DNA from: an uncultured Lachnospiraceae bacterium
Lineage (GTDB): Bacteria; Bacillota; Clostridia; Lachnospirales; Lachnospiraceae
Assembly: GCA_949840805.1 (NCBI GenBank)
Contig: CATKXR010000013.1
Span: 1 to 64,000 of the forward strand
DNA length: 64,000 nucleotides
Reading direction: 5' to 3'
Positions 3,962 to 22,864 of this stretch are shown here, in pieces. How positions within the stretch are numbered: the stretch's first letter is position 1; the number at the start of each line of letters is the position of its first letter. Made by a program: the position numbers and the translations under genes. The notes under the pieces were generated by a model. It saw only the letters and a program-made list of their open reading frames with translations, searched no databases and was not told where the DNA came from.

Positions 3962-4030
3962 AAACCAATAATGCATATTTGTGAACAGAATAATGGATGT
4001 CGGATTTTGCCAGAAGTCCTTATGCTTAAC

Positions 4031-4072
4031 AAAAGAGATTTGAAATAGAACATTTTAAATCTCTTTTATTTT
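4031..4072 (+). terminator. Intrinsic terminator after queA
   Basis: AAAAGAGATTT (4031-4041) pairs with AAATCTCTTTT (4057-4067). The stem extends inward through a G-U pair and four A-U pairs to a five-base loop. A T-rich stretch follows. The stem is AT-rich but long. Confidence 0.7.
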
Positions 4073-4075
4073 GTA

Positions 4076-4104
4076 TTGACACATGAGAGCTAATAAGCTA
4101 TCAT
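4076..4104 (+). promoter_or_regulatory. Promoter of the toxin-antitoxin pair
   Basis: A consensus TTGACA (4076-4081) is 17 bases from TATCAT (4099-4104). The spacer holds AGCTAATAAGCT, a short symmetric element where the antitoxin could bind for autoregulation; that part is inference. Confidence 0.75.
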
Positions 4105-4129
4105 ATAAACAGATGAAGGAGAAAGCATA

Positions 4130-4498
4130 ATGTACGAGGTTCATTTTTATCGGGATGCTAATGGGAATCAGCCAGTCAAAGAATACCTTGACAAATTGGA
4201 AGAAAAGTCCTTAAAAAGCAAAGACGCAAGAATAAAATATAATAAAATCGACCAATATATCGGAATATTAATGGAACATGGGACAGCGGCAGGAGAGCCG
4301 TATGTAAAACATTTAGATGGGGAAATATGGGAACTGCGTCCGCTGAGAGACAGGATTCTGTTTTTTGCATGGGATGGAAATTCATTTATTTTGTTAAGCT
4401 ATTTTGTGAAAAGCACACAAAAGACGCCAAAAAGAGAGATTGAAAAGGCGAAAAGGTTAATGGAAGATTTCAGGGAAAGGAGCCGGGAGAATGGATAA
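4130..4498 (+). CDS. HigB/RelE-like toxin, phage Gp49 family (122 aa)
   Basis: The gene starts eight bases after AAGGAG (4116-4121). The product opens YEVHFYRDANGNQPVKEYLDKL and carries GEIWELRPLRDRILFF and a basic C-terminal FVKSTQKTPKREIEKAKRL. This pattern is typical of the Gp49/HigB branch of RelE-fold mRNA interferases, which cut mRNA on the ribosome. It overlaps the downstream XRE gene by eight bases, the toxin-first order of HigBA modules. Base composition is more AT-rich than the neighbours, suggesting acquisition. Cleavage activity is inferred from family only. Confidence 0.85.
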   Translation: MYEVHFYRDANGNQPVKEYLDKLEEKSLKSKDARIKYNKIDQYIGILMEHGTAAGEPYVKHLDGEIWELRPLRDRILFFAWDGNSFILLSYFVKSTQKTPKREIEKAKRLMEDFRERSRENG

Positions 4499-4796
4499 TG
4501 GAAAGAAAATCTCTCCAATGGGGGAAAGTTGGAGCGAATACCGAAAGAAGCATTATACGGCGGAAGAAATTGCAGAAAATGATTTGATGGTTAAGCTGGT
4601 TGGGGAAGTAATAAAGACTAGAAAGGAAAAGCATATATCGCAAAGGGAATTGGAGAATATGACAGGGGTTAAGCAGTCTGTGATTGCAAGAATGGAAAGT
4701 GGAAAAACGGACCCCCAGCTATCAACAATTTTAAAATTGTTGGTATCTATGGGAAAAACGCTTACAATTGTTCCTCTGGAGCTGCCTGAAAAATAG
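4491..4796 (+). CDS. HigA-like XRE-family antitoxin (101 aa)
   Basis: A helix-turn-helix of the Cro/XRE type spans about residues 42-95, with SQRELENMTGVKQSVIARMESG as its core. The N-terminal 40 residues may hold the toxin-binding part. It starts inside the toxin gene (overlap 4491-4498) after AAAGGAG, so the two are translationally coupled. The expected role is to neutralise the upstream toxin and repress the promoter at 4076. Confidence 0.85.
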   Translation: MDNGKKISPMGESWSEYRKKHYTAEEIAENDLMVKLVGEVIKTRKEKHISQRELENMTGVKQSVIARMESGKTDPQLSTILKLLVSMGKTLTIVPLELPEK

Positions 4797-5037
4797 GATG
4801 CTTTCTTAATATTTCAGGATGTATAGTCCTTGTAACTTCCCAAACGTGCATTTTGGGGTGTAACCGTACAACATAGGGGGTGCCATGCTCATATATTAGT
4901 CTTAAAATCGTATATTTATAGAGGTTGCCTGTATTCTAGCCTATTGGCATTTATGGTAAATGGATGATTTTGTGAGATAAAATGGCGCAAATTTATAGGA
5001 GCATATCTTGTTAAGCGAAATCGGGAAAGGAATCGCT

Positions 5038-5772
5038 ATGGAATCCGTCCGTCTGAATAAATATTTAAGTACACAGGGAATCTGCTCCCGCAGGGAAGCG
5101 GACCGGAGAATTGAAGCAGGAGAGATTACGATAGATGGCAGACCGGCAAAAATGGGGGAGCGGGTCACTGGCCAGGAGAGGATTTGCTGGAAGGGAAAGA
5201 TGATTGGAGATGCTGGCAGCGGACAAAAGGCCGAGCCGGTTCTTTTGGTGGTAAATAAGCCAAGAGGAGTGGTCTGTACGGTCTCCGATAAGGACCGGGC
5301 GCCTAATATAGCAGAGCTGGTGGGATATCCGTCCCGCATCTATCCGGTGGGAAGGCTGGATAAGGATTCGGAAGGCATGGTTCTTATGACAAACCAGGGA
5401 GAACTGGCCAATCAGATCATGCATGCGGGAAATTTTCATGAAAAGGAATATCTGGTGACAGTGGATCACCCTTATAATGAAGCGTTTCTGAAACAAATGC
5501 GGGAAGGCGTGAACCTGGAGGAATTAGGGGAGGTCACTCGTCCCTGCGTGGTTGAGCCGGAAGGGACAAGGCAATTTCGGATTATACTGACCCAAGGTCT
5601 GAACCGGCAGATCCGGAGAATGTGCGAGGCATTGGGATTTCATGTGGTAAGCCTGAAGAGAGTGCGTATTATGAATATCCGTTTGGGAAAACTGAAAACA
5701 GGAGATTTTCGGAAGGTGACAACAGAGGAATGGAGAGAGCTGAAGCAAAGAGTGGGAGAAGTAAAAAGCTGA
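5038..5772 (+). CDS. rluF: 23S rRNA pseudouridine synthase, RluF type
   Basis: The protein has an N-terminal S4 RNA-binding domain (RLNKYLSTQGICSRREADR) followed by a RsuA/RluF-type catalytic domain. GRLDKDSEGM carries the catalytic Asp at residue 108. KEYLVTVDHPYNEAFL and QGLNRQIRRMCEALGF match RluF, which modifies U2604 in E. coli 23S rRNA. The ATG at 5038 has AAAGGA (5026-5031). A TTG at 5008 has an equally good AGGAG (4997-5001) and would add ten residues. ligA follows almost at once, so the two are probably cotranscribed. Confidence 0.9.
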   Translation: MESVRLNKYLSTQGICSRREADRRIEAGEITIDGRPAKMGERVTGQERICWKGKMIGDAGSGQKAEPVLLVVNKPRGVVCTVSDKDRAPNIAELVGYPSRIYPVGRLDKDSEGMVLMTNQGELANQIMHAGNFHEKEYLVTVDHPYNEAFLKQMREGVNLEELGEVTRPCVVEPEGTRQFRIILTQGLNRQIRRMCEALGFHVVSLKRVRIMNIRLGKLKTGDFRKVTTEEWRELKQRVGEVKS

Positions 5773-5824
5773 TATGAGAAATATGGAGACCTGTGCAGAA
5801 AAGCCGTACAGGATGGAGGGAAAA

Positions 5825-7822
5825 ATGGCGGAAAACAGGGAAAAAGCCGTAAAGCGGATGAAAGAGCTGATCGCTTTGCTTTTGCCGGCGGCAAGGGCAT
5901 ATTATCAGGAAAGCCGGGAACTTATGAGCAATCTGGAATATGACCGGCTGTATGATGAGCTTTCGGAGCTGGAGAAAAATACGGGAATTGTGTTGGCAGG
6001 AAGTCCTACTCAAAAAGTAGGATATGAGGTTTTAAGCGAGCTTCCCAAGGAAGCTCACGAGTCTCCTATGTTGTCTCTTGATAAAACCAAGGAAGTTACA
6101 GCGCTGCAGGACTGGCTGGGGGACCAGAAGGGAATTCTGTCCTGGAAGCTGGACGGGCTGACCATCGTGCTGACTTATGAGGGCGGGGAACTGGTGAAGG
6201 CAGTTACCCGGGGAAACGGGGAAATCGGAGAGGTGATCACCAATAATGCCAGGGTATTTGCCAACGTACCTTTAAGGATCCGCTATGAAGGACAGTTGAT
6301 TTTGCGGGGAGAGGCTGTGATACGGTATTCAGATTTCGAGCATATTAACGAGGCAATAGGGGATGCAGATGCCAGATATAAGAATCCGAGAAACTTATGC
6401 AGCGGTTCCGTGCGTCAGCTTAATAATGAGATCACGGCACGCCGGAATGTAAATTTTGAAGCATTTATGCTGGTGAAAGCAGATGGGGTTGATTTTCATA
6501 ATTCCCGGAAAGAGCAGTTTGAATGGCTTTGCAGCCAGGGATTTGATGTGGTAGAATACAGGGAGGTGACAAGGGAGACACTGCCGGATGCGGTATCTTT
6601 TTTCTCTGAGGCAGTTGTTTCCAGCGATATGCCGTCAGACGGCCTGGTGCTTTTGATGGATGATATCGCATATGGGGAATCTTTGGGACGGACGGCTAAA
6701 TTCCCCCGGAATTCCATAGCTTTTAAGTGGGCGGATGAGATTCGGGAGACAAAGCTTTTGGAGATTGAGTGGAGCGCGTCCCGAACCGGGCTTATTAATC
6801 CGGTGGCGATTTTTGAGCCGGTGGAGCTGGAAGGCACCACAGTCAGCCGGGCCAGTGTCCATAACATCAGCATTATGGAGGCACTAAAGCTGGGAGAGGG
6901 GGACACGATCACAGTCTATAAGGCAAATATGATTATTCCTCAGATCGCGGAGAACCTGACAGAGAGCGGAACCGTAAAAATTCCGGAAATGTGTCCGGTA
7001 TGCCAGGGAAAGACAGAGATCCGCCAGGTAAATGACGTGCGTTCTTTATATTGTACCAATCCGGACTGCCAGGCAAAAAAGATTAAAAGTTTTACCCTCC
7101 TGGTGAGCCGGGATGCCCTGAATATTGACGGGCTCTCAGAGGCTACGCTGGAAAAGTTTATTGCGGCCGGTTTTATTCACGAGTATGCGGATATTTTCCA
7201 TCTGGACCGTCATGAGGAAGCCATTATTACTATGGAAGGATTTGGCAAAAAGTCTTATGACAATCTTATGGCTGCCATAAAAAATGCTTCTCACACGACG
7301 CTTCCCAGGATGATTTATGGACTGGGCATTACAGGAATCGGTCTTGCCAATGCGAAGATGCTGTGCCGCACCTTCCGTTCGGATTTTGACGCTATGAGAA
7401 AGGCAGAGAAGGAAGAACTTATGGACACGGACGGTATCGGGGAGGTTCTTGCAGACGCATGGATCGGTTATTTCGCATCGGAGAAGAATAACCGCCTGGT
7501 GGACGGATTGCTGGCAGAGCTGACCATCGAGCAGGAACCAGAGAGTGAGGAGGAGGCCATATTTGCAGGAAAGGTCTTTGTGATTACCGGGTCAATGGAA
7601 CATTTTGCCAACCGCAAGGCGCTGCAGGCGGAGATCGAGAAGCGGGGCGGAAAGGCCACAGGCTCTGTGACGGCAAAGACTAGCTATCTCATCAACAATG
7701 ATGTCACGTCCAATTCGTCAAAAAACAAAAAGGCGAAGGAACTGGGAATCCCCATCATTTCGGAGACGGATTTCCTGAATATGCTGGGAGGGAACGATAA
7801 TGCCGATCAAAGTACAGAATGA
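5825..7822 (+). CDS. ligA: NAD-dependent DNA ligase
   Basis: LigA seals nicks during replication and repair using NAD+. The order is complete: Ia domain (YYQESRELMSNLEYDRLYDEL), adenylation domain with the KLDG lysine at residue 108, OB fold, a four-cysteine zinc finger (CPVC...CTNPDC), helix-hairpin-helix repeats and a C-terminal BRCT domain (FAGKVFVITGSMEHF). The start at 5825 follows GGAGGG; upstream in-frame ATGs at 5774 and 5813 lack better sites. The motif usually reading NPRNAAAGSLRQ is KNPRNLCSGSVRQ here. The end overlaps metA by 23 bases. Confidence 0.95.
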   Translation: MAENREKAVKRMKELIALLLPAARAYYQESRELMSNLEYDRLYDELSELEKNTGIVLAGSPTQKVGYEVLSELPKEAHESPMLSLDKTKEVTALQDWLGDQKGILSWKLDGLTIVLTYEGGELVKAVTRGNGEIGEVITNNARVFANVPLRIRYEGQLILRGEAVIRYSDFEHINEAIGDADARYKNPRNLCSGSVRQLNNEITARRNVNFEAFMLVKADGVDFHNSRKEQFEWLCSQGFDVVEYREVTRETLPDAVSFFSEAVVSSDMPSDGLVLLMDDIAYGESLGRTAKFPRNSIAFKWADEIRETKLLEIEWSASRTGLINPVAIFEPVELEGTTVSRASVHNISIMEALKLGEGDTITVYKANMIIPQIAENLTESGTVKIPEMCPVCQGKTEIRQVNDVRSLYCTNPDCQAKKIKSFTLLVSRDALNIDGLSEATLEKFIAAGFIHEYADIFHLDRHEEAIITMEGFGKKSYDNLMAAIKNASHTTLPRMIYGLGITGIGLANAKMLCRTFRSDFDAMRKAEKEELMDTDGIGEVLADAWIGYFASEKNNRLVDGLLAELTIEQEPESEEEAIFAGKVFVITGSMEHFANRKALQAEIEKRGGKATGSVTAKTSYLINNDVTSNSSKNKKAKELGIPIISETDFLNMLGGNDNADQSTE

Positions 7823-8714
7823 TCTGCCGGCCAGGGCGATCCTGGAGTCGGAAAATATATTTGTGATGGATGAGAAACGTGCTTTAAGCCAGGACATCCG
7901 TCCTCTGCAGATTTTGATTTTAAACCTGATGCCGGTTAAGGAGGAGACAGAGACGCAGCTTCTGCGGGCTCTTTCCAACACGCCCCTGCAGGTGGACTGC
8001 ACTTTTTTAATGCTGAGTACCCATGTTTCCAAAAATACATCGGCAAGCCATCTGAATAAGTTTTATTTGACTTTTAATGAGATCAGCAAACGGAAATTTG
8101 ACGGGATGATCATCACAGGCGCGCCGGTGGAGCATTTGGAATTTGAGGAAGTGTATTACTGGGAGGAATTAAAGATGATTATGGAATGGACGAAAACACA
8201 TGTCCATTCTACCTTCTACATCTGCTGGGGAGCCCAGGCAGGGCTGTATTACCATTATGGAATTCAGAAGCATAAACGGGAGAAAAAACTGTCAGGCATT
8301 TACGAGCATCAGGTGCTGCACCACAAGGTTCCTCTGGTGAGGGGGATGGATGATTACGTGATGGCGCCTCATTCCCGGTATACGGAGGTTTTGCGCAGGG
8401 ATATTGAGAGACATCCGGAATTGAATATTCTGGCAGAATCACGGGAGGCGGGAGTGCTGTTGGTGATGAAAAGGGACGGAAGCCAGATCTTTGTCCAGGG
8501 TCATCCGGAATATGACCGTATGACTCTGAATAATGAATATCATCGGGATCTGAAGAAAGGGCTGTCTCCGGAGGTGCCTTGCAATTATTATGAGGATAAT
8601 GATCCTTTTGGAAGGCCGATGCTTACCTGGAGAAACGTCTGCAACACGCTCTATGCCAATTGGCTTAATTATTATGTGTATCAGACTACGGATTATATTC
8701 TGGATAATGAATAA
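7800..8714 (+). CDS. metA: Homoserine O-acyltransferase, probably acetyl-CoA-specific
   Basis: MetA acylates homoserine in the first committed step of methionine synthesis. The catalytic Cys142 lies in YICWGAQAG, and QGHPEYD supplies the His and Glu. Residue 111 is Glu (GAPVEHLEF). In characterised family members a Glu here favours acetyl-CoA and a Gly favours succinyl-CoA, so acetylation is predicted despite the older succinyltransferase name. The start lies within the last codons of ligA after GGGAGGG (7786-7792), an unusual coupling of methionine synthesis to a ligase gene. Confidence 0.93.
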   Translation: MPIKVQNDLPARAILESENIFVMDEKRALSQDIRPLQILILNLMPVKEETETQLLRALSNTPLQVDCTFLMLSTHVSKNTSASHLNKFYLTFNEISKRKFDGMIITGAPVEHLEFEEVYYWEELKMIMEWTKTHVHSTFYICWGAQAGLYYHYGIQKHKREKKLSGIYEHQVLHHKVPLVRGMDDYVMAPHSRYTEVLRRDIERHPELNILAESREAGVLLVMKRDGSQIFVQGHPEYDRMTLNNEYHRDLKKGLSPEVPCNYYEDNDPFGRPMLTWRNVCNTLYANWLNYYVYQTTDYILDNE

Positions 8715-8793
8715 ATTGCCGGCAAACGGCATATACTTCTACCAATGGGATAACTTACCAACCATAACAAGATTCTAAGGAGGGAGTATAACT

Positions 8794-9039
8794 ATGGCGA
8801 GAAGAGCGAGAAGAACGCCGTTGGAAAAATGTCAGGATGAGCTCTTGGAGGTACAAGCCAGTATCCGTCAGTACGAGGACTGTCTGGAGACCCTTCGGGA
8901 GAGGGAAAAGGAACTTCAGGGACAGATTATGATGGAAAAGTTTAAGGAAGTAAATGAACTGCTGGAGGTCCAGAATATGTCCCTGGATGACCTGAAGGAG
9001 CTGCTGGCAGCAGAGGGAAAAAGCGTACAGATCGCGTAA
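8794..9039 (+). CDS. Small basic coiled-coil protein (81 aa), function unknown
   Basis: A strong AAGGAGGGAG site precedes the ATG. The first 10 residues are Arg-rich. Residues 10-50 form a predicted coiled coil (KCQDELLEVQASIRQYEDCLETL). The rest is a short helical region with MSLDDLKELLAAEGK. The layout resembles small helical proteins such as DUF4315, but I cannot assign a family. No terminator follows, and 230 bases separate it from pcrA, which has its own promoter. Confidence 0.7.
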   Translation: MARRARRTPLEKCQDELLEVQASIRQYEDCLETLREREKELQGQIMMEKFKEVNELLEVQNMSLDDLKELLAAEGKSVQIA

Positions 9040-9159
9040 ACAAAAGGTGCGGGACATTACAGTCCGCCTGATGAATAGCGAACCGCAATTATGGAATTTA
9101 TTGGAATTTCCACCGGCAGGGGTGCAGAGGCTGTAAACAGTATTGCAGCGTCTGTTCCC

Positions 9160-9188
9160 TTGCCTTCTGTGTTTTGGCATGCTATAAT
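9160..9188 (+). promoter_or_regulatory. Promoter of pcrA
   Basis: TTGCCT (9160-9165) lies 17 bases from a perfect TATAAT (9183-9188), which also has an extended -10 TGC just before it. The transcript would begin with the hairpin described at 9183-9227. Confidence 0.75.
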
Positions 9189-9227
9189 AGGAACACTCAG
9201 CGAGAGTGATTTTCTGAGAGTGAAGGA
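9183..9227 (+). repeat. Promoter/5'-hairpin module, copy A
   Basis: The stretch from TATAAT through AAGGA is closely similar to 11600-11646. The shared core is AGGAACACT(C/T)AGCGAG followed by a U-rich bend and an arm related to CTNAGTG. The RNA can fold CACTCAG against a downstream CTGA..GTG arm with a two-base bulge. It forms the first bases of the pcrA leader. Confidence 0.55.
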
Positions 9228-9273
9228 TATATGGATTTGCAGGTTACTGGAAGGAAAGGATTAGGAAATACAT

Positions 9274-11547
9274 ATGGAAATAAGCGATACATTGAATCCA
9301 AAGCAGAGAGAAGCCGTTTTGCATACAGAGGGTCCACTTCTGATTCTGGCAGGCGCCGGTTCTGGCAAAACCCGGGTACTGACACACAGGATTGCCTGCC
9401 TGATAGAAGAAAAGGGCGTAAATCCCTGGAATATCCTTGCCATTACGTTCACCAACAAGGCGGCGGGAGAGATGCGGGAGAGGGTGGACAGCCTGGTAAA
9501 ATCAGGGGCGGGAAGTGTCTGGGTCAGTACGTTCCATTCTCTTTGTGTGCGGATATTGCGGCGTTTTATCGAATATCTGGGGTATGAAAATAATTTCAGT
9601 ATTTATGATGCCGATGACCAGAAGACCCTGATGAAGCAGGTGATTAAGAAGCTGAACCTGGATCCGAAGCAGTATCGGGAAAGACCTATGATGTCGATCA
9701 TTTCCAGTGCAAAAAATGAATTGATTGATACGGAAACATTTCGGAAAAAAAGCGGAGGCGACTGGAAACTGGGAAAGGCGGCGGATGTCTATGAGGCATA
9801 TCAGGCGGAACTAAAGAAGAATAATGCCCTGGACTTTGACGACCTGATTTTTAAAACCGTGGATTTGTTCCGGGTTAATGCAGAGGTGCTGGATTATTAT
9901 CGGGAACGGTTTCGCTATATCATGGTGGACGAGTACCAGGATACCAATACGGCTCAGTTTGAACTTATTGCCTTGCTGGCGGGAAAATATGGAAACCTCT
10001 GTGTGGTGGGAGACGACGACCAGTCGATTTATAAGTTCAGGGGAGCCGATATCGGCAATATTTTAAATTTTGAGGAAACGTTTCCAGGAACAAAGGTTAT
10101 TAAGCTGGAGCAGAACTACCGTTCCACGGCCCATATACTGGATGCGGCCAACGCGGTGATCTGCAACAATAAGGGACGGAAGCAAAAGACCTTATGGACG
10201 GCCAATGAAGACGGCCCTTTGGTAATGTTCCGGCAATACGGGCAGGCTTATGAGGAGGCAGAAGGAATTGTGCGTGATATGCTGGCACAAGGACGAAATC
10301 TGCGGGATTTTGCGGTGCTGTACCGGACAAATGCCCAGTCCCGGCTTTTAGAGGAAAAATGCATTTCTTATAATATCCCTTATCGGCTTGTGGGCGGGGT
10401 GAATTTCTATCAACGCAGGGAGATCAAGGATATTTTATGCTACTTGAAGACGATTGCCAATGGGAGGGACGATCTGGCAGTCCAGAGGATCATCAATGTT
10501 CCCAAACGGGGAATCGGCGCATCTTCCATTGGAAAAGTCATGGAATGGGCCGGAAGGCAGGAAACAAGCTTTTATGAGGGATGTGTCCATGCTGCGTCCA
10601 TACCGGGAATGGGAAAGGCTGCAGGCAAAATTCAGGGATTCGTAAGCCAGATTCAGGATTTTGCCAGAAGAAACCAGGCATGGGAGCTTGGCATACGGCA
10701 GGAGGAAGACGTTCCCCAAAACAGAAGATATGGTCTTGAGGGATTGATTCGGGATATTCTGGAAGAGACAGGCTATCGCAGTGAACTGCAGGCAGAGGGA
10801 GAAGAGGAGGCAAAGGCACGGCTGGAAAATATCGATGAGCTGATTAATAAAGCCGCCAGCTATTGTGCGGAAAATGAGGAACCAAGTCTCAATGGATTCT
10901 TAGAAGAAGTTTCTTTGGTGGCGGATGTTGACCGTATGGACGATTCGCAGGACAGGGTGACGCTGATGACTCTGCACAGCGCCAAGGGGCTGGAATTTCC
11001 GGTGGTCTATTTAAGCGGTATGGAGGACGGGTTGTTTCCCAGTTCCATGTCCATTATGTCAGACGACCCTACCGACATAGAGGAAGAACGAAGGCTCTGT
11101 TATGTGGGAATCACCCGCGCCAGAGAACGCCTGACCATGACGGCGGCCAGGATGCGTATGAGTAAAGGAGAAACACGTTATTCTAAGGTCAGCCGCTTTG
11201 TGGAGGAGATTCCCGGTGATCTTGTGGACACCATGTCGCCAGGCGCAAGAGCTAATGCTAATGCTTCCTCAAATGCAAGGTATGAGGAAAAAAAGTTTGA
11301 CGGCAGGCAGTTTAAGCCTCAGACGGTTGTCGGAGGCAGGACGCCGGGATTCGGAAAAGAGTTCACCATTCAAAAAGCATCAGCCTTGGAGTATGGAGCC
11401 GGAGACCGGGTACGCCATGGGAGATTTGGAGACGGAACAGTGCAGTCGGTGACAGACGGGGCAAGAGATTTTGAGGTAGCAGTGGAATTTGACCGGTTTG
11501 GAGTAAAGAAAATGTTTGCTTCCATTGCCAAGTTGGAGAAATTGTGA
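9274..11547 (+). CDS. pcrA: ATP-dependent DNA helicase PcrA (UvrD/Rep family)
   Basis: PcrA is a 3'-5' superfamily 1 helicase for repair and rolling-circle replication. The 757 residues hold every helicase motif: Walker A AGAGSGKT at 26-33, DEYQDT near 219, GDDDQSIYKFRGAD, TLHSAKGLEFPVVYLSGMEDGLFP and VGITRARE. A C-terminal Tudor-like segment (GDRVRHGRFGDGTVQSV), which in this family contacts RNA polymerase, is intact. The start is preceded by TTAGGA. It is transcribed from the promoter at 9160. Confidence 0.97.
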   Translation: MEISDTLNPKQREAVLHTEGPLLILAGAGSGKTRVLTHRIACLIEEKGVNPWNILAITFTNKAAGEMRERVDSLVKSGAGSVWVSTFHSLCVRILRRFIEYLGYENNFSIYDADDQKTLMKQVIKKLNLDPKQYRERPMMSIISSAKNELIDTETFRKKSGGDWKLGKAADVYEAYQAELKKNNALDFDDLIFKTVDLFRVNAEVLDYYRERFRYIMVDEYQDTNTAQFELIALLAGKYGNLCVVGDDDQSIYKFRGADIGNILNFEETFPGTKVIKLEQNYRSTAHILDAANAVICNNKGRKQKTLWTANEDGPLVMFRQYGQAYEEAEGIVRDMLAQGRNLRDFAVLYRTNAQSRLLEEKCISYNIPYRLVGGVNFYQRREIKDILCYLKTIANGRDDLAVQRIINVPKRGIGASSIGKVMEWAGRQETSFYEGCVHAASIPGMGKAAGKIQGFVSQIQDFARRNQAWELGIRQEEDVPQNRRYGLEGLIRDILEETGYRSELQAEGEEEAKARLENIDELINKAASYCAENEEPSLNGFLEEVSLVADVDRMDDSQDRVTLMTLHSAKGLEFPVVYLSGMEDGLFPSSMSIMSDDPTDIEEERRLCYVGITRARERLTMTAARMRMSKGETRYSKVSRFVEEIPGDLVDTMSPGARANANASSNARYEEKKFDGRQFKPQTVVGGRTPGFGKEFTIQKASALEYGAGDRVRHGRFGDGTVQSVTDGARDFEVAVEFDRFGVKKMFASIAKLEKL

Positions 11548-14251: not shown

Positions 14252-15400
14252 ATGAAAAGAAAGATTTTAACAGCCATTTTGGCAGGAGCCATGACATTTT
14301 CCATGGGGATGGCAGCTTTTGCCGAATTGGAACAGGACGGAGCCGAGGTTGTAAATGGTGCGGTCCAGGAAGAGAATGCAGAGGCAGCCGATTCTGGAAA
14401 CACAGAAACAGTTAATACCGGAAGTTATGACCCACAGTATCCTCTGGCAGGCATGCTGGATCAGTTAGGACTGAATTTTGCAAGGGATTCTGCTGGTGCG
14501 GATATGTTGTACTGGTCAAAAATGTACCAGAACTGGATGATTGGTTATGACGAGGGGCCTGAATTTATATGGAAAAAATGTAAGGAAGAAAACACTCTGA
14601 AATATTGGCATGTGCCGGAAAACTATGACGAAATGCTTGCGATAGCAAAATTGGCAGGAAGGACAGATATCCATCTTCCTTATGCAGACGAGGCAAAGGC
14701 AGAAGCTCTGGCTAATAATATCCGGGAATTTATGAAGACATTTCCCGATTGGAAAACAGCGTCTGAGTATGATAAGGCGGTACATATTTTCAAATGGATT
14801 ACGCAGGCAGAGTACGATAAACAAACTCACAATGAAATGTATAATCCTGATGAATATAATCCGGAAGAAGTCGGAAAAAACATATACAGCTCTTATGGAT
14901 GCCTGATTGACAAACAATGTGTGTGCAGCGGTTATACCAGCGCTGCCCAATTGCTGGCCGCATGTGTGGGCCTGGAATATATGCCGGCTGTTGAGCTGGT
15001 ATTTAAAGGCCATGTATACCCGGTATTTAAAATTAATGGGGTCTGGCTGTCTTGTGAACCTACTAACGGCTCTGATTATCAGTTTTTTGAAATATATGAT
15101 GTTTATTATCAACCTCCCAATGATGCAGCTACCGGCGGAAAGAGGGGGAGCGAAGAAGATGTAAAAACTGACCGTGCATATAATATAAAGAACTTTTTAT
15201 ATAACCAGGGTTATGTTGTTCCGACCAAGCTGAAGGGCAAATTTGGTTTTGATTCTTCGCTCATTTCTTCTGCAGGAAGGTACAGAGACCATCTTGACTT
15301 TGGCCTTTACGAAAACAGCGGGGAAACATCTTCAGAAGAAACCGTCAAGATAATCGATCCATGCGGGCATTTTCCGGCAGAAAAACTGTGGAAAAAGTAA
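14252..15400 (+). CDS. Secreted transglutaminase-like superfamily protein (382 aa)
   Basis: Residues 1-24 are a clear signal peptide ending AAFA. After an acidic linker, a transglutaminase-like domain (about 125-290) presents CSGYTSAAQLL with the nucleophile Cys225, GHVYPVFKING with His254, and CEPT with Glu269. Glu replaces the Asp usual at the third position. Surrounding SSYGCLIDKQ and GLEYMPAVEL fit the bacterial cell-surface members, whose action as peptidases, transglutaminases or inactive binders is mostly untested. AGGGAG lies upstream. It is probably monocistronic. Confidence 0.82.
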   Translation: MKRKILTAILAGAMTFSMGMAAFAELEQDGAEVVNGAVQEENAEAADSGNTETVNTGSYDPQYPLAGMLDQLGLNFARDSAGADMLYWSKMYQNWMIGYDEGPEFIWKKCKEENTLKYWHVPENYDEMLAIAKLAGRTDIHLPYADEAKAEALANNIREFMKTFPDWKTASEYDKAVHIFKWITQAEYDKQTHNEMYNPDEYNPEEVGKNIYSSYGCLIDKQCVCSGYTSAAQLLAACVGLEYMPAVELVFKGHVYPVFKINGVWLSCEPTNGSDYQFFEIYDVYYQPPNDAATGGKRGSEEDVKTDRAYNIKNFLYNQGYVVPTKLKGKFGFDSSLISSAGRYRDHLDFGLYENSGETSSEETVKIIDPCGHFPAEKLWKK

Positions 15401-15580: not shown

Positions 15581-16807
15581 TTACCGGGATTCCGGCGATG
15601 CCGCAGCAGGAACCGTTTCTGTGTATCTTACAGTTCCGTCTTCTTTATAACTGGTTCCATAAGAGATCTGTTCCATATATTGAAAAAATTCACGCCGTTT
15701 TTCTTCCTCTGACAGCATTTTCGTGTATCCTGCCCCGGAGGTTCCCGGAAGCAGGCGCAATGTGGGCTCTGTGTCATCCTGGCAGTTTTCCCATGTCACC
15801 TGCAGGAGTGCTGTGCGGGGAATGGAACTTCCAAAAATAAAATTCCCCAGGCTGTATACAATCGCTTTTCCCTTGTAATATTCAATGCCCTGCAGCACAT
15901 GGGGATGGGAGCCTACTACCAGATCTGCCCCTGCATCGATCATCTGTTTTCCCATGGCTCTCTGATATTCCTGCGGCCTTTCATCTCGTTCGATTCCCCA
16001 GTGGATACATACCACAACAATATCATGGTCCTGTTTTCTGGCCTTTATCTCTTCTAAGAGTATTGTCATGTCATAAGCTGACAGCATTCCTGGATGCTGC
16101 CTTCCGGCAGCCCAATCTGCCACAGGTATTACTCTGGTTGCCCCGATCACGGCGATTTTCTTCCCTTTCCTTTCTATCGATATGGGGCGTCTGGCTTCCT
16201 CCAGGTCGGCTCCTGCTCCTGTGTGCAGAATACCGGCGCCATCCAGGATCTCACAGGAATCCAAAAGGGCTTCCTGGCCGAAATCCAAGGCATGGTTGTT
16301 GGCTAACGTCACCCCCTGGATGCCGATTTCCTGAAAGATAGAGATTCGTTTTGGTGGCAGCCGGAAAGTATACTGCTTATCTGCTGCTGCGGTTCCCCGG
16401 TCACTAAAAGGGAATTCCTGGTTGACCAGGAAAAAGTCAGCCTTTCTGATCTGGTCCTGGTATCCTTCATCCAATACTCCCTGGATGCCTCCGGCCTTAT
16501 CATAGGCAATCAATACATGGTCAGAAAGCAGCACATCTCCAGAAAACAAGAGTGTGAGTGTTTCTTTCTCTAAAGTTTCTCCGTCTCCTGAGACGGTTTC
16601 TGTTTCCCGGTCCGGTTCAAGCCCATCCGGATTATTGCCTGTATTTTGTGCTTCTGTCTGTGAGTCGTCAATAATAATAATTTCTGTCTCTTGCTCTTTA
16701 TAGGTTTCTTCGATTTCCGGGATTTTCTCATATGTTTTTTTATTGCATCCGGGTATCAACACTGCTGCAGCGATTGCCAGCAAAATAATATAGTTTTGTT
16801 TTCTCAT
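15581..16807 (-). CDS. CapA-family (PGA_cap) metallophosphatase-like lipoprotein (408 aa)
   Basis: The N-terminus is a lipoprotein signal with the lipobox IPGC at about residue 21. An acidic Thr/Glu-rich linker follows, then the CapA/PgsA domain from about residue 85: LLFSGDVLLSD, NQEFPFSD, TLANNHALDFG, CIHWGIE and GSHPHVLQG. The GD, NH, HWG and HPH motifs are those of the calcineurin-like fold. CapA proteins help make or export poly-gamma-glutamate, but no capBC homologue is nearby, so that role is unproved. GGAG lies ten bases before the start. Confidence 0.88.
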   Translation of the reverse strand: MRKQNYIILLAIAAAVLIPGCNKKTYEKIPEIEETYKEQETEIIIIDDSQTEAQNTGNNPDGLEPDRETETVSGDGETLEKETLTLLFSGDVLLSDHVLIAYDKAGGIQGVLDEGYQDQIRKADFFLVNQEFPFSDRGTAAADKQYTFRLPPKRISIFQEIGIQGVTLANNHALDFGQEALLDSCEILDGAGILHTGAGADLEEARRPISIERKGKKIAVIGATRVIPVADWAAGRQHPGMLSAYDMTILLEEIKARKQDHDIVVVCIHWGIERDERPQEYQRAMGKQMIDAGADLVVGSHPHVLQGIEYYKGKAIVYSLGNFIFGSSIPRTALLQVTWENCQDDTEPTLRLLPGTSGAGYTKMLSEEEKRREFFQYMEQISYGTSYKEDGTVRYTETVPAAASPESR

Positions 16808-17198
16808 TCTATTTAATCTCCATACGAGGGCAGATGTCCTTAATGTTTTTTATAATCAATGTTTTTTCCTGAAATGGCTGACAGGATTTGGATAAGGAAC
16901 AATTATATTTTACTATAAATGATTCTTATTTCCTACCATATTTTATTTGAATTTTTCATGACATTCACAAACGTCTCTTTTTTCAGATGCTTTTCAGGTG
17001 TTTTCTGTATTTAACGGATTGACATATATACCGGAACTATTGTAGTATTTGTATGGTACACAGTTGTTTTCCCCTGATGGTCAGTCAGCAGCTTGGATTT
17101 GAAAACATCTGTAAATTGTAAAATAAATCATATATGGTTTCATAAACATGTCTTGTAAAGCGCGGACAGGTAAAAGGAAACCAGGAAAAGGAGACAAG
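16808..17198. other. Divergent intergenic region
   Basis: About 390 AT-rich bases separate the CapA-like gene (minus) from ridA (plus). A good promoter for ridA is at 17019-17048. I cannot place the minus-strand promoter with confidence. No small gene is supported. Confidence 0.5.
17019..17048 (+). promoter_or_regulatory. Promoter of ridA
   Basis: TTGACA (17019-17024) and TAGTAT (17043-17048) are 18 bases apart, leaving a leader of about 145 bases before the ridA start. Confidence 0.55.
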
Positions 17199-17567
17199 AT
17201 GAAAGTATTGGAAACAAAGAAAGCCCCTGGCGCTATCGGCCCTTATTCCCAGGGCTATGAAGTTGGTGGAATGGTCTATACTTCCGGCCAGATTCCCGTA
17301 GACCCGGAAAGCGGCCAGATTCCGGAAGGCATCGCTGCTCAGGCAAGGCAGAGCTGCCTGAATGTAGGGGCTATTTTAGAAGCAGCAGGCACAGGGTTTG
17401 ACCGTGTGTTTAAGACAACCTGCTTTTTGGCTGATATGGGAGATTTTGCGGAATTCAATAAAGTATATGCCGAGTACTTTACATCTAAGCCTGCCAGAAG
17501 CTGTGTGGCGGTAAAGAGCCTGCCAAAAGATGTTTTGTGTGAGATTGAAGCGATTGCGGTTAAGTAG
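17199..17567 (+). CDS. ridA: RidA family reactive-enamine deaminase
   Basis: RidA hydrolyses reactive enamine/imine intermediates made by PLP enzymes, protecting other PLP enzymes. The 122-residue protein shows the full pattern: APGAIGPYSQG, VYTSGQIP, RSCVAVKSLPKDVLCEIEAIA with the conserved Arg and Glu. The ATG at 17199 is preceded by AAGGAG; the 17 residues upstream in the same frame are unlike the family. A strong terminator separates it from the ATPase gene. Confidence 0.95.
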   Translation: MKVLETKKAPGAIGPYSQGYEVGGMVYTSGQIPVDPESGQIPEGIAAQARQSCLNVGAILEAAGTGFDRVFKTTCFLADMGDFAEFNKVYAEYFTSKPARSCVAVKSLPKDVLCEIEAIAVK

Positions 17568-17587
17568 GTTTTGGTGAAATATGACAG

Positions 17588-17626
17588 GGGCGTTTTTTCA
17601 ATATCTGAAAAAACGTCCTTTATTTT
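17588..17626 (+). terminator. Intrinsic terminator of ridA
   Basis: A 13-pair stem (17588-17600 with 17606-17618, one G-U) and a five-base loop are followed by TTTATTTT. Confidence 0.9.
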
Positions 17627-17656
17627 GTGTTTCTATAATTTTTCATCATTTTCTTA

Positions 17657-17686
17657 TTGTCTATAAAACCAATGAAGTGATAGTAT
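17657..17686 (+). promoter_or_regulatory. Probable promoter of the ATPase-HNH cassette
   Basis: TTGTCT (17657-17662) and TAGTAT (17681-17686) are 18 bases apart, about 43 bases before the ATPase start. The cassette therefore seems to be its own transcription unit. Confidence 0.5.
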
Positions 17687-17729
17687 ATGGATATAGATAA
17701 TGACAGAATGAAAACCAGGAGCAAAACTT

Positions 17730-20573
17730 ATGAAGTTAAAGAGAAATCCGGATCAAATTACAGAAGGGGTCATAAGGTTAGCAGAACATTATAAAGACAG
17801 CCTTTCCCCAAACAAGGTGCTTTTAAAAAAGAATCTTCCTGAAAATCAGGACGAGGCAATTTGTTTTTTGCTGGAGCTATTTGACGAAGCGGAAAAAATA
17901 ATTCTGGAAGAGCATAAGAAGACGTTTGTTACAGATACTTATGAAAATAATGTACGGGAATTTGCGGCGGCGCTGATGAAATTTTTAATACCTTATCATT
18001 CCCGGCTGAAAAATAAGAAACCTTATAAAGATTTGTGCAGGAAGAGGCATATCGGCTATGGATATTATAAAACAGTCAACAACAGGAATTTTCAGGGGCA
18101 GGTTATCTCGGACGATCCGTACCGGGAATTGTTGTATCTTGGCCTGGCAGAGTTTTATAACAATTTTTACGGGAAATTTTTCGATAACGAAGAAGCCATA
18201 GAATTACTGTGTAAATATTATCCGAAGAATATGAATATGGAACGGCATGTGGAAGAAATATCTTCCGCGCTCTACATCCATATTTCAAATGCAGGAACAC
18301 CAGGCGATCTGGGTTATGCGTACCAGGGAATAAAAATGATTGAGAAGTATATAAGCAACTTACCTGAGAATATCGTGTACGCGGTACTGGATAAATATTC
18401 TTTATATGATCTTGTCAACAGTAAGATGCGCCGTCATCAGTTGTTTGCCATAATTGACCATGCAGGTTTTCATATGGCAGATAAAAAGGTACTGAAGTTC
18501 TGGTATTTGGATTCTGTGATTGCAGGAGAAATGATTGGTCAGTTGGTTTTGGAAAATTTAAAAGAAGAGGGAACGGAAATAAGTTCCCATAATAATTATT
18601 ATGATTACAGGCTGTCTGATGAGGAGTATATTGTTCTTAATGAGCCGTTTACATATTGGAAAAATGATTTGTCTGAAAGAGAGCGGGTTTTGCTTTTGGG
18701 TGACAGACTGGCCATTATTATATATTTGAAGGATGATAAGATTAAAGTACATAATCAAATAACAGGACAGTATGAAAGCTTCCCATATAAATATGAAGAC
18801 TGGTTAGTGGAAAGCTTTTATCGTGATCAAAATGAAAAAAAGCTGCAAAGCCTGGTATCAGGGCCGGGAAGCAGGGGGAAAATGCCTTACGGTTCCATGA
18901 TGTTTTCATTGGCATACTTAGATCATTACAGGGGTCTGCAGGATCAGGTTATTGACTTTGATCACAGGTTTGTTTTTGGCAGCAGAGATAAATTATTAAA
19001 GAAAAAGGATACTGTTACGAATAAAATCCCCCATATTTATGGAAAATCCGTATATTCTTTATCGTGTATTGTAGGAAAAAATGCAACGGGAAAAACAAGT
19101 ATCATTGACTTTCTCAGGGAGGCATTTTTCAAAATTTTAAAGTTTATACAAGAAGGCCGGCTGACTTGCGAAAACGGATATATCAGGGAAGAAGAATATG
19201 AGGATTATAATATTCTGGATAAAAGCGCAAGGTTTTTGGTGGCTTTTTCCTTGGGTGAGAGTATTTATTTTGTTACTAATATCCAGGGAGTGCAGGCAAG
19301 CGATGCAGAGCCTTTTTACAAAGGCGCTTATAACAGGATAAGGCAATTGAGCAAAGTTGCTTATTTTTCCAGTCAGTTAAGAAGCGATCAGGGAGAGCTT
19401 CTGTGGGATGAACAGAACCAGGTGGTTTATGATGAAGAAAAGAGAAGAAAGCAGGATATATCAAAAGTAAACAGTGATTTCAGGCAGGCTGATTATTCAG
19501 AAAAAGCAAGTTTTATCAGAAAGAGAAAAACGCTCAGGCTGTCGGAGAACATGAAGGAAACAGAGGAGCCTATACAGTATACGGCAGGAAATATAAATAA
19601 GGATATTTGTTTTCAGCTTACGTTTCTGAAGAAATCCCGTCCCGGAAAAATACAGGAATATCTTGACGAAAAAGAGCAAAAGGAATTCAGGATAATAAGC
19701 CGGTTGTATGGCGAAAGATATGAAAGTTTTTTCTTAAAAGAACTGGAAGGCCAGGCGGATAAAGAACACAGCCAGGAAAGAATGGCAAGAAGCCGGGAGG
19801 AAATATGGAGAAAACTGGAAGAATTTGTAAAGCTTCCGGACGCGGCAATAGAATATTTTTCAGCAGGCCAGTATGCTAAATTTTCTTTTTTGGCAAAACT
19901 CCAGTGGTTTTTGGATGGCGATAAAGAAGAAATCCAAAGATATAATGAGCTGGCAGGAGATTTTATGTTCAGCGAGGAAGAAGTATTGCTAGATGGGGAA
20001 ACCGCACTGATTTTTATTGATGAAGGGGAAATCTATTATCATCCGGAGTGGCAGCGTGGATATATAAAGCTTCTGCTGGAAATGGTAAATGCGAGACAGA
20101 AAAAAGTGCAGATTATAGTAACAACAAATTCACCATTTATTATATCGGATATTCTGGGCGAGGACATCACTTATCTGTCAGAGGACAAGATCAATGAAAA
20201 TAACAAAAAGAGGGACGGGGAATGCACCCTGGGGCAGAATATCCATAAGCTTTTGAGAGATAATTTTTTTATGCAGTATACCATAGGCGAATATGCCAGA
20301 GAGTTCATAGAAAATATTATGCTTTGCCTGAATGAGGAAAAAGAGCATGATGAGAGTAACAGGGCAGAGAAGATCTTAAAGCTTTATTTTGATGAAATCC
20401 GAAACTACTATGATGCGTTTCATTTGCTGATCGACCAGATCGGAGAACCTGTTTATAAGAACACTTTAAAGAAAATGCTGGATTTATCTCCCTTTGCAGA
20501 AGAAAATAAGGATATCGAGAAGCAGATACGTGAATTGGAGGAAAAGATACAAAAGCTGAAGGAGAGAAGATAA
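17730..20573 (+). CDS. Large AAA/ABC-type ATPase of a Septu-like defence cassette (947 aa)
   Basis: Residues about 1-400 match nothing I recognise; they are helical and charged. The ATPase half begins near 420. It has Walker A GKNATGKT (449-456), an ABC-signature-like SAGQ (711-714), Walker B IFIDEGE with D764/E765, and TTNSPFIISDI (798 onward). That is the AAA15/AAA21 'overcoming lysogenization defect' type of ATPase seen in PtuA, RloC and retron partners. The H-loop His expected in TTHSPF is Asn800. The last 30 residues form a coiled coil. An HNH nuclease gene follows two bases later. PtuA proteins are usually much shorter, so this would be a long variant. Codon use is AT-rich compared with the neighbours, suggesting transfer. 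Confidence 0.85.
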   Translation: MKLKRNPDQITEGVIRLAEHYKDSLSPNKVLLKKNLPENQDEAICFLLELFDEAEKIILEEHKKTFVTDTYENNVREFAAALMKFLIPYHSRLKNKKPYKDLCRKRHIGYGYYKTVNNRNFQGQVISDDPYRELLYLGLAEFYNNFYGKFFDNEEAIELLCKYYPKNMNMERHVEEISSALYIHISNAGTPGDLGYAYQGIKMIEKYISNLPENIVYAVLDKYSLYDLVNSKMRRHQLFAIIDHAGFHMADKKVLKFWYLDSVIAGEMIGQLVLENLKEEGTEISSHNNYYDYRLSDEEYIVLNEPFTYWKNDLSERERVLLLGDRLAIIIYLKDDKIKVHNQITGQYESFPYKYEDWLVESFYRDQNEKKLQSLVSGPGSRGKMPYGSMMFSLAYLDHYRGLQDQVIDFDHRFVFGSRDKLLKKKDTVTNKIPHIYGKSVYSLSCIVGKNATGKTSIIDFLREAFFKILKFIQEGRLTCENGYIREEEYEDYNILDKSARFLVAFSLGESIYFVTNIQGVQASDAEPFYKGAYNRIRQLSKVAYFSSQLRSDQGELLWDEQNQVVYDEEKRRKQDISKVNSDFRQADYSEKASFIRKRKTLRLSENMKETEEPIQYTAGNINKDICFQLTFLKKSRPGKIQEYLDEKEQKEFRIISRLYGERYESFFLKELEGQADKEHSQERMARSREEIWRKLEEFVKLPDAAIEYFSAGQYAKFSFLAKLQWFLDGDKEEIQRYNELAGDFMFSEEEVLLDGETALIFIDEGEIYYHPEWQRGYIKLLLEMVNARQKKVQIIVTTNSPFIISDILGEDITYLSEDKINENNKKRDGECTLGQNIHKLLRDNFFMQYTIGEYAREFIENIMLCLNEEKEHDESNRAEKILKLYFDEIRNYYDAFHLLIDQIGEPVYKNTLKKMLDLSPFAEENKDIEKQIRELEEKIQKLKERR

Positions 20574-20574
20574 G

Positions 20575-21501
20575 TTGATAAAAATGGACAGCTATTCTTC
20601 GGAATTCGAGGAAGAGTATTGGAACACGGTTAATAAGAAAATAGGAGAGGAAATTCAGAAAGATATATTAAAAAGCTGTAAGAAATTTTTGCCGGAGAAT
20701 TTTTTTGTCCCCGGAACCTCATCCTTTGAGTCCGTTGTGCGCGCGCCTTTTGCAAAGCTTAAAAGGGCAAAACAGTATATAGATTCTGTGTCCGCAAAAA
20801 TAATGAAAGAAGAATGTTTTGATCCGTCATGCAAAAATAAATCCGATATCAATGATCTGTATATTGAGATCTATAATGCATTTGAAAGTGTGGCAAAAGC
20901 ACAGAAAAATAAAACTTCCATGAGAGTGAGAATGGTAAGGGAGGCCGGATTTACCGTATGTCCTTATTGCAACCGGGATTATATAAACTGCAGGGCGGAT
21001 ACGGTGTCAGGGGCTCAGTTGGACCATTTTTTCAGCAGATCGGAATACCCTGTCTTTGCCGTGTCTTTGTACAATCTTGTTCCGGTATGCGGAAACTGCA
21101 ACAGAGTCAAAAGCGACAGAAATACAGAATTTGCCTCCCCTTTTGACGAAACGATCGATTGGGAGAATGATGTCAGATTTACCTATCATCACGGAAGCCT
21201 GGGACAGATTAAGATCCGGATTTTGTCGTCAAACGAGGCTGTCCGGCATAATATCAGCGCAATGCGCATAGAGGAGGCCTATCAGATCCATGATCTTGAA
21301 ATTTTAGAAATAGAGGACAGGCGTCAGGCATACTCGGAAAGCCAGAAGCAGGAGATCCGGGAGGTCCTGAAAAAAATAAAAATCACGGATGATGAAATAA
21401 AGCGGATCATATTCGGGCCAAAGATTACCCCAGGGGAAATGAAGAAAAAACCCCTGGGAAAGATGATAAGCGATATACACAAGGAATTAGAAATATATTA
21501 G
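20575..21501 (+). CDS. HNH endonuclease partner, PtuB-like (308 aa)
   Basis: The start is a TTG ten bases after AAGGAG (20559-20564); an ATG three codons later is too far from that site. A zinc-ribbon HNH module has C129PYC132, L-D150-H151-F, Asn167 in SLYNLVP, and C172GNC175. The Asp-His pair, the Asn and the four Cys are what an active HNH nuclease needs. Residues 1-120 are helical and may bind the ATPase. The gene is coupled to the ATPase and ends tail-to-tail with the next gene, overlapping it by four bases. The expected role is nicking or cutting nucleic acid when the ATPase senses infection; this is inferred from Septu. Confidence 0.85.
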   Translation: MIKMDSYSSEFEEEYWNTVNKKIGEEIQKDILKSCKKFLPENFFVPGTSSFESVVRAPFAKLKRAKQYIDSVSAKIMKEECFDPSCKNKSDINDLYIEIYNAFESVAKAQKNKTSMRVRMVREAGFTVCPYCNRDYINCRADTVSGAQLDHFFSRSEYPVFAVSLYNLVPVCGNCNRVKSDRNTEFASPFDETIDWENDVRFTYHHGSLGQIKIRILSSNEAVRHNISAMRIEEAYQIHDLEILEIEDRRQAYSESQKQEIREVLKKIKITDDEIKRIIFGPKITPGEMKKKPLGKMISDIHKELEIY

Positions 21502-22490
21502 GACAGGCAGGCGCAGCCCTGGGTGATTCCCCTCTCCCGAAAGCGTTTGGCCATGGCATTTAAAACCCGGCGTTTGTCAGCGCTCCATAAGGGAGCAAGG
21601 AGCAGGCGCCTGGGGCCGTCGCCGGTAAGGCGGTGGATGATAATTTCAGGAGGCAGAAGGGCGATACAGTCAAGGACCAGGTCAATGTATTCATCCATGG
21701 AAAGGACAGGGAAGGGGCTTTTTTGGTATTGTATGGCAAGGTCGGTTCCGGAGAGAACGTGGAGGAGCTGAAGCTTGATTCCCTGAATATCCTGACGGCT
21801 CAGGTATCGGACGGTTTCCAGCATTTGTGTGCGGGTTTCTCCGGGCAGCCCTAAGATCACGTGGACGATGCATTCCAGATTGCGGCGGCGCAGCCGGCGG
21901 AGGGCGTCTTCAAAGCAGGGGAGGCCGTAACCCCGTCGGATCCGGGCAGCGGTTTTTTCGTGAACGGTCTGAAGTCCCAGTTCCAGCCATACGGGTTTGA
22001 TCCGGTTTAATTCCTCGCAGAGATTCAGCGCCTCATCAGAAAGACAGTCAGGCCGGGTGGCGATGGAGAGAACCCGGATGTCCGGATGATTGAGGGCAGC
22101 GGTGAACAGGGCGCGCAGGTAAGAAACAGGGGCATAGGTGTTGGTGTAAGACTGGAAGTAGGCAATGTAGGCATCCGGAAAGGAGCCGAGCTTTGCGTGG
22201 ATTCTGGCGGCGGCGTGACCGATCTGGCTGTGTATGGATTGAGAAAGCTCGTCCGGATGGAGCTTGTGGCGTGTTCCGGAAACGGCAATTCCAGCCGTGC
22301 TGCAGGAAAGTGGTTCTGCAAATTCTCCAGAGCCTCCGGCGCTGCAGAAGATGCAGCCGCGGGTGCCTAAGGTTCCGTCCCGGTTGGGGCAGGTCATGCC
22401 GCCGTCTAAAGCGATCTTATAGACTTTTGTGCCAAAGCGCTGTTTCATCTCGTAATCTAAGGAGTGATAAGGTTTTTCATTCCAATACAT
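21498..22490 (-). CDS. Radical SAM protein, YhcC/TIGR01212 family (330 aa)
   Basis: The N-terminal half carries the atypical cluster motif CPNRDGTLGTRGCIFC, whose first two cysteines are widely separated, as in the TIGR01212 family. FQSYTNTYAP, IATRPDCL, WLELGLQT and HVILGLPGE are also family blocks. These enzymes should bind a 4Fe-4S cluster and cleave SAM, but their substrate is not known to me. AAAGGA precedes the ATG. The stop codon overlaps the end of the HNH gene with no visible terminator between, so read-through antisense transcripts are possible. Confidence 0.9.
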   Translation of the reverse strand: MYWNEKPYHSLDYEMKQRFGTKVYKIALDGGMTCPNRDGTLGTRGCIFCSAGGSGEFAEPLSCSTAGIAVSGTRHKLHPDELSQSIHSQIGHAAARIHAKLGSFPDAYIAYFQSYTNTYAPVSYLRALFTAALNHPDIRVLSIATRPDCLSDEALNLCEELNRIKPVWLELGLQTVHEKTAARIRRGYGLPCFEDALRRLRRRNLECIVHVILGLPGETRTQMLETVRYLSRQDIQGIKLQLLHVLSGTDLAIQYQKSPFPVLSMDEYIDLVLDCIALLPPEIIIHRLTGDGPRRLLLAPLWSADKRRVLNAMAKRFRERGITQGCACLS

Positions 22491-22864
22491 GGCAGGAGTC
22501 CTTTCACGGCAAGGGATATCCGGTTTGTGTTTTTTGAAATTCCCTTTTATAATTCAATTATAGACCAAAGCAGGCGGAGATGGCAAGCATGGCTTTAAAG
22601 TGCAGGATGCATGTAATAACCGGAATACGGGCCGCTTGTTATTGCAGGTGATTTAAAACGGCTCTCGTGAATAGTAACAATATTTATAAGAATGGCCTAA
22701 TAAATGGAATCTGGTATTGTATCTCCGGCCTTTTTTATGGTATACTTTTCCGTGATATTCCTTCATTCATGTTCTGGCAGGGCAGGGTACGGGCTTTATG
22801 TTACAGAACAGAGATCCTATTAACGGAGGGGAAGCGGGATTTTTTAGACGCAGAAAGGAGAAAA

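Follow-up and report, generated by a model that had tools for sequence, protein, structure and literature searches.

Introduction

Septu defense systems pair an ABC-type ATPase (PtuA) with an HNH nuclease (PtuB), and work by Li et al. in 2024 is said to show that the PtuA-PtuB oligomer is restrained by ATP. To our knowledge, how Septu-like ATPase-HNH pairs recognize their trigger when no retron is present is not settled. In the available excerpts of the relevant reports, Septu from EcB88 acts by cleaving tRNA-Tyr, and it depends on its Walker A, Walker B, and HNH residues (PMC13096335). The PtuAB proteins of retron-Eco7 likewise deplete tRNA-Tyr; PtuA and PtuB expressed together cause growth arrest, and the reverse transcriptase (RT) and msr/msd neutralize this toxicity, as described in excerpts of PMC11555353. 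The same excerpts cite Septu PtuAB of ATCC25922 as acting on nicked DNA, and tRNA was not lowered by the PtuAB of Eco4 in the portions available of PMC13096335 and PMC11555353. A related kind, PDC-M62, is listed as a candidate family in PADLOC, and we found no activity test of it in the literature searched. One study, as far as its excerpted text goes, discards a PDC-M62 call when its proteins receive a Septu call as well (PMC11811056), so the two names are only loosely separated. Here, we describe an ATPase-HNH cassette in a 64,000-nucleotide stretch of DNA (the window) from an uncultured Lachnospiraceae bacterium (assembly GCA_949840805.1, contig CATKXR010000013.1, positions 1 to 64,000). 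A first-pass annotation of the sequence had proposed it as a long, divergent Septu-like defense candidate. We found that the cassette is a genuine, conserved, and accessory variant of the PDC-M62/Septu-like kind with a long N terminus.

Results

The cassette consists of two open reading frames (ORFs) on the forward strand. The first (P0001, 17730..20573) encodes a 947-residue ATPase whose Walker A (GKNATGKT, residues 449-456) and Walker B (FIDE, with D764 and E765) motifs are intact, in line with the initial description; the ABC signature (SAGQ) lies at residues 711-714, and the H-loop position is occupied by Asn800. The second (P0002, 20575..21501) has a TTG start and encodes a 308-residue HNH protein. 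The Cys, Asp-His, and Asn residues expected of a PtuB-like nuclease are present in it, and C129, C132, D150, H151, N167, C172, C175, and N176 are invariant in all six HNH proteins that accompany ATPases of this length. Three of the five homologous ORFs (L066, L067, and L120) begin exactly opposite this TTG codon in the alignment; in L068 and L069, the longest ORF starts five and three residues earlier, respectively. A single base (20574) lies between the ATPase stop and the HNH start, which falls two positions past the last stop base, as annotated, and appears placed for translational coupling with the ATPase gene.

By profile comparison, the cassette lies closest, among named families, to PDC-M62, the PADLOC candidate that supplies the best PADLOC profiles for both proteins, ahead of PtuA and PtuB. 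Specifically, the ATPase best matched PDC-M62A (2.4e-37), and the top six were all PDC-M62A among the best 25 of 80 families. The HNH protein best matched PDC-M62B (9e-44, residues 12-307 of 308), with the top four all PDC-M62B. Septu profiles ranked lower (PtuA1 at 4.5e-18 for the ATPase and PtuB1 at 6.4e-9 for the HNH protein), and the NCBIfam PtuA and PtuB models, which describe the effectors of retron Ec78, scored far under their cut-offs (48.8 of 500 bits and 19.1 of 150 bits). Pfam assigned the ATPase to AAA_15 (5.4e-11) and gave the HNH protein only a subthreshold HNH match (0.0035). The closest solved structure to the ATPase by sequence was PtuA (8ee4, 2.2e-5). The Septu-like label given earlier therefore suits the pair in kind, but its nearest named family is PDC-M62 and not PtuAB. 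In PHROGs, the ATPase core matched phrog_8939 (8e-27), a phage-protein family of unknown function, so relatives of the core do occur in phages. A second, short PDC-M62-like pair is present in the same assembly (G000 contig C51, L052:6506-8479 and 8398-9606), with a 657-residue ATPase (Walker A at residue 84) and a 402-residue HNH protein.

Full-length homologs of the ATPase were found at five other loci. Searching 392 genomes of the order with an HNH profile recovered a locus with a 955-residue ATPase that was 33% identical over residues 27-944, and an alignment-based scan of genome contigs yielded four full-length homologs among 454 pattern matches (L066; L067, from Clostridiales bacterium 1_7_47_FAA; L068, from UBA4039; and L069, from an uncultured Lachnospiraceae bacterium), one of which was the 955-residue protein. 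Single-sequence peptide patterns found no relatives. The sixth long locus belongs to a congener (G1097, locus L120), with identities to the window of 59% for the ATPase and 63% for the HNH protein. Across the five loci, ATPase identity to the window ranged from 33 to 59%. In all six long ATPases, Walker A lies at residues 447-473 and the HNH gene follows directly. In a tree built from the cores of 59 ATPases (364 columns), the six long forms grouped in one clade with a support of 1.0, as did their partners in a tree of 30 HNH sequences (support 1.0). The long clade fell among PDC-M62A-like short forms, apart from a group of ATPases of about 350-480 residues that we take as PtuA-like by their size and HNH partner. 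The proposal of a new subtype holds only in a narrow sense, for a clade with a long N terminus that lies beside or inside PDC-M62.

The H-loop residue follows the same division. In the aligned column, Asn occupies the position in all six long ATPases, whereas 52 of the 53 short ATPases have His and one has Asn. Asn800, noted in the initial annotation, is thus a lineage trait. Earlier readings of the short forms, by motif pattern (32 of 53) and by eye (six of seven more), had all given His. The sole short ATPase with Asn (L023, 448 residues) lies outside the long clade, and we read its residue as an independent loss of the H-loop His.

What sets the long clade apart is an N-terminal extension (residues 1-385, 17730..18884) placed before the ABC-type core (residues 386-947, 18885..20573). 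Walker A lies at residues 15-103 in the twelve best-scoring of the 53 short relatives, and as far as residue 198 in one distant relative; in the window, an additional stretch of about 385 residues places it at 449. The extension was found in none of the 53 short ATPases in the comparison (best E value, 0.03). It is genuine and conserved, since five other loci carry it. Residues 1-397 contain 45 invariant columns among the six proteins, and H184, D193, R235-H236-Q237, K256, and D261 are invariant in all six. Between the window and G1097, the ratio of nonsynonymous to synonymous substitutions (dN/dS, by the NG86 method) came to about 0.14 in the extension and 0.09 in the core, values that are rough given saturated dS (2.5 and 2.7). 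In 14 of 15 pairs, the helical part of the extension has diverged more rapidly than the core, a pattern that a sensing surface might show.

No PADLOC model matched the extension in any of the six members, so that, as the annotation had supposed, an ordinary PtuA domain does not account for the first 385 or so residues. No Pfam family matched the window copy; other copies gave stray single-member matches, and the best of these, Pesticin_RB (4.9e-4, in one of the six members), was discounted as missing from the remaining five. No PDB chain matched up to an E value of 10, and PHROGs gave only single-member stray matches (best, 0.004). AlphaFold modeled residues 1-397 with a mean predicted local distance difference test (pLDDT) score of 72 and a predicted template modeling (pTM) score of 0.73, and the full-length ATPase poorly (pLDDT of 54). 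The model comprises a helical part (residues 1-279), a poorly resolved strand-rich part (about 285-354), and a short helical link. Structural searches with the extension returned a background of helical repeats, including weak HEAT/ARM-like matches, and no viral match with an E value of 0.001 or less. Named sensor folds, HEPN and TPR among them, are not prominent in the match lists, an absence that proves nothing.

The long form is rare. It occurs in two of 24 genomes of the genus, and among 397 genomes of the family (no more than two candidates scored in each), the only full-length match was in the window's own genome. Some match to the ATPase was found in 54 of the 397, mostly to the C-terminal core. 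Searches with the extension, as a single sequence against 391 genomes of the class and as a profile against 398 genomes of the phylum, likewise found only the window's own genome (no more than four candidates were scored for any genome among the matches listed). Peptide and alignment patterns recovered no long-form relative from viral contigs, and a search of phage records with the extension gave no matches. Plasmid matches to the ATPase, among the 30 of 33 listed, covered only residues 703 onward. The cassette represents a rare form within an already known candidate family, rather than an entirely new system.

The upstream boundary of the cassette is a terminator-like hairpin that follows ridA (17586..17620, forward strand), with a 15-pair stem and then a T-rich tail. 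Downstream, the convergent radical-SAM gene (21498..22490, reverse strand; Radical_SAM and Radical_SAM_C domains) shares 4 nucleotides (21498-21501) between its stop and that of the HNH gene. The G+C content of the cassette is 0.387, compared with 0.475 for the whole window, and the ATPase gene has a third-position G+C content of 0.41, the joint lowest with the gene at 14252-15400 among 40 ORFs of more than 200 residues. The hairpin, the tail-to-tail overlap, and the AT-rich composition all agree with the earlier description. The promoter ascribed to the cassette was not confirmed: a scan restricted to the sigma-70 type found no forward-strand site between the hairpin and the ATPase start codon, and the 17 sites counted on both strands of the region were near chance (shuffled mean, 13.3; standard deviation, 3.4).

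Comparison of 14 congener regions around the radical-SAM gene showed that the module is accessory and that its locus varies at one site. Only G1097 holds the cassette at the same site, where it starts at the stop codon of a capA-like gene (junction TAATG) and ends 17 nucleotides from the radical-SAM ORF. In six regions the site is empty, with capA directly beside the radical-SAM gene (L122, L125, L126, L127, L128, and L133). In another (L124, 7904-10015), a different low-G+C cassette contains a helix-turn-helix (HTH) gene, an IrrE-type peptidase gene, and an unknown gene of 311 residues. The capA/radical-SAM site may be a small insertion hotspot. Five regions have other genes beside the radical-SAM gene (L121, L123, L129, L130, and L131), and one contig was too short to judge (L132). 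In the window (15581-17567), the capA-like gene is reversed relative to the congeners that hold capA beside the radical-SAM gene, and ridA separates it from the cassette, which points to a local rearrangement on the upstream side of the insertion.

Clear defense neighbors were found at two of the six long-form loci (L068 and L069), a count made without a matched control; at L066, L067, and G1097 and in the window, the pair stands as a lone insertion. At L069, a gene for a 1,043-residue Mrr_cat-NACHT protein (3108-6236), matched by no PADLOC model, ends 22 bp upstream of the ATPase-HNH pair on the same strand, and the three genes possibly form one defense operon. The neighbors at L068 include a C5 methyltransferase (MTase_II, 1e-164), a MutH-type endonuclease (REase_II, 3.2e-109), a ZorD-like SNF2 helicase, and a protein with a NO VEIN C-terminal domain; two ORFs adjoining the cassette resemble an IS3 transposase, as judged by eye only. 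An Imm22-like gene follows the HNH gene in L066. The immediate neighbors in the window look like housekeeping genes. Among them, PADLOC matched ridA to PD-T4-2_B (9.7e-32) and the radical-SAM gene to PDC-M51A (1e-15), both of which we rejected as common-domain matches. No reverse transcriptase was present among the flanking genes scanned (PGA_cap, RidA, and radical-SAM), and Rfam gave no match up to an E value of 0.1 in 16700-22700, on which basis we set aside the idea of a retron or other noncoding RNA at the locus.

Elsewhere in the window, a Gp49-like toxin gene, which we take to be of the RelE/HigB type, is paired with an HTH antitoxin gene (4130-4796; G+C content, 0.38-0.40). A coiled-coil ORF on the reverse strand (536-1066; G+C content, 0.34) contains a tandem motif (SSLKDSNIKIETDI) and lies about 500 bases from a tRNA-Arg gene (1578-1651).

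Discussion

We lean, if only slightly, toward reading the cassette as a self-contained, horizontally variable module against mobile elements, of the PDC-M62/Septu-like kind, with a restrained HNH nuclease and an extension that receives the trigger. Its role is probably anti-phage. Specifically, the ABC-type ATPase would assemble with the HNH nuclease and hold it inactive until infection. The fused helical and beta N-terminal module would receive the trigger or set the oligomeric state and, by analogy, play in cis the part that the RT and msr/msd of type I-A retrons play in trans. We thus infer that the extension supplies either trigger recognition or restraint of the nuclease. Upon release, the HNH protein would cut nucleic acid (tRNA or DNA) and phage growth would stop, probably through abortive infection. 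A bolder proposal, which we regard as doubtful, is that the extension is a new phage-sensing domain, fused in cis to the ATPase-HNH effector and replacing restraint by retron RNA and RT, and that the H-loop change from His to Asn fixes the ATPase in the role of a slow safety catch held by ATP.

The same defense module could also operate with a purely structural extension, serving as a scaffold for oligomerization or HNH recruitment while trigger sensing falls to the ATPase core, on the pattern of short PDC-M62 and Septu. Helical-repeat domains often act as scaffolds, the structural matches were HEAT/ARM-like if weak, and short PDC-M62-like relatives exist without any extension. However, the polar residues invariant in all six members (H184, D193, R235-H236-Q237, K256, and D261) suggest a specific site, and the helical part outpaces the core in divergence in nearly every pair (14 of 15), so we consider a structural role unlikely.

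Less probable still, and in our judgment quite unlikely, is that plasmids or competing elements, and not phages, are the main targets of the pair, or that it is a selfish addiction module. This would fit an accessory, low-G+C insertion at a site that holds the HTH and IrrE-peptidase cassette in another congener, as well as the halt in growth upon joint expression of retron-Eco7 PtuAB in the excerpts of PMC11555353; restriction-modification and NACHT genes among the neighbors at two loci, and the listing of PDC-M62 by PADLOC as a phage-defense candidate, argue otherwise. A cellular DNA-repair or RNA-processing pair with no link to defense would suit the lone insertions among genes without defense character (L066, L067, G1097, and the window) but is highly improbable given the low G+C content, the variable site, and the presence of the long form in just two of 24 genus genomes and, at full length, in only its own genome among the 397 of the family (up to two candidates scored in each).

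The long clade, conserved and distinguished by a single additional domain that can be separated from the rest, offers a direct test of whether that domain governs triggering. Furthermore, the near-exclusive H-loop Asn provides a natural test of whether ATP hydrolysis is needed or binding alone is enough.

Among known systems, type I-A retrons (Ec78/Eco7 and Ec83/Eco4) carry an RT and msr-msd beside ptuAB; at the cassette, the flanking genes scanned gave no RT and Rfam gave no match. It shares with Septu the pairing of an ABC ATPase with an HNH protein and intact Walker A, Walker B, and HNH residues, whereas PtuA is without the extension of about 385 residues. The likeness to PDC-M62 is closer: an ATPase gene is followed directly by an HNH gene, the best profiles of both proteins are from this family, and the core tree places the long clade amid short ATPases that are PDC-M62A-like. 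Nevertheless, the seven PDC-M62A profiles listed span 597-746 positions, an architecture of about 600-750 residues with the ATPase domain near the N terminus, and in the twelve best-scoring short ATPases Walker A lies at 15-103 and the H-loop residue is His. The ATPase described here has 947 residues, with Walker A at 449 and Asn in the H-loop.

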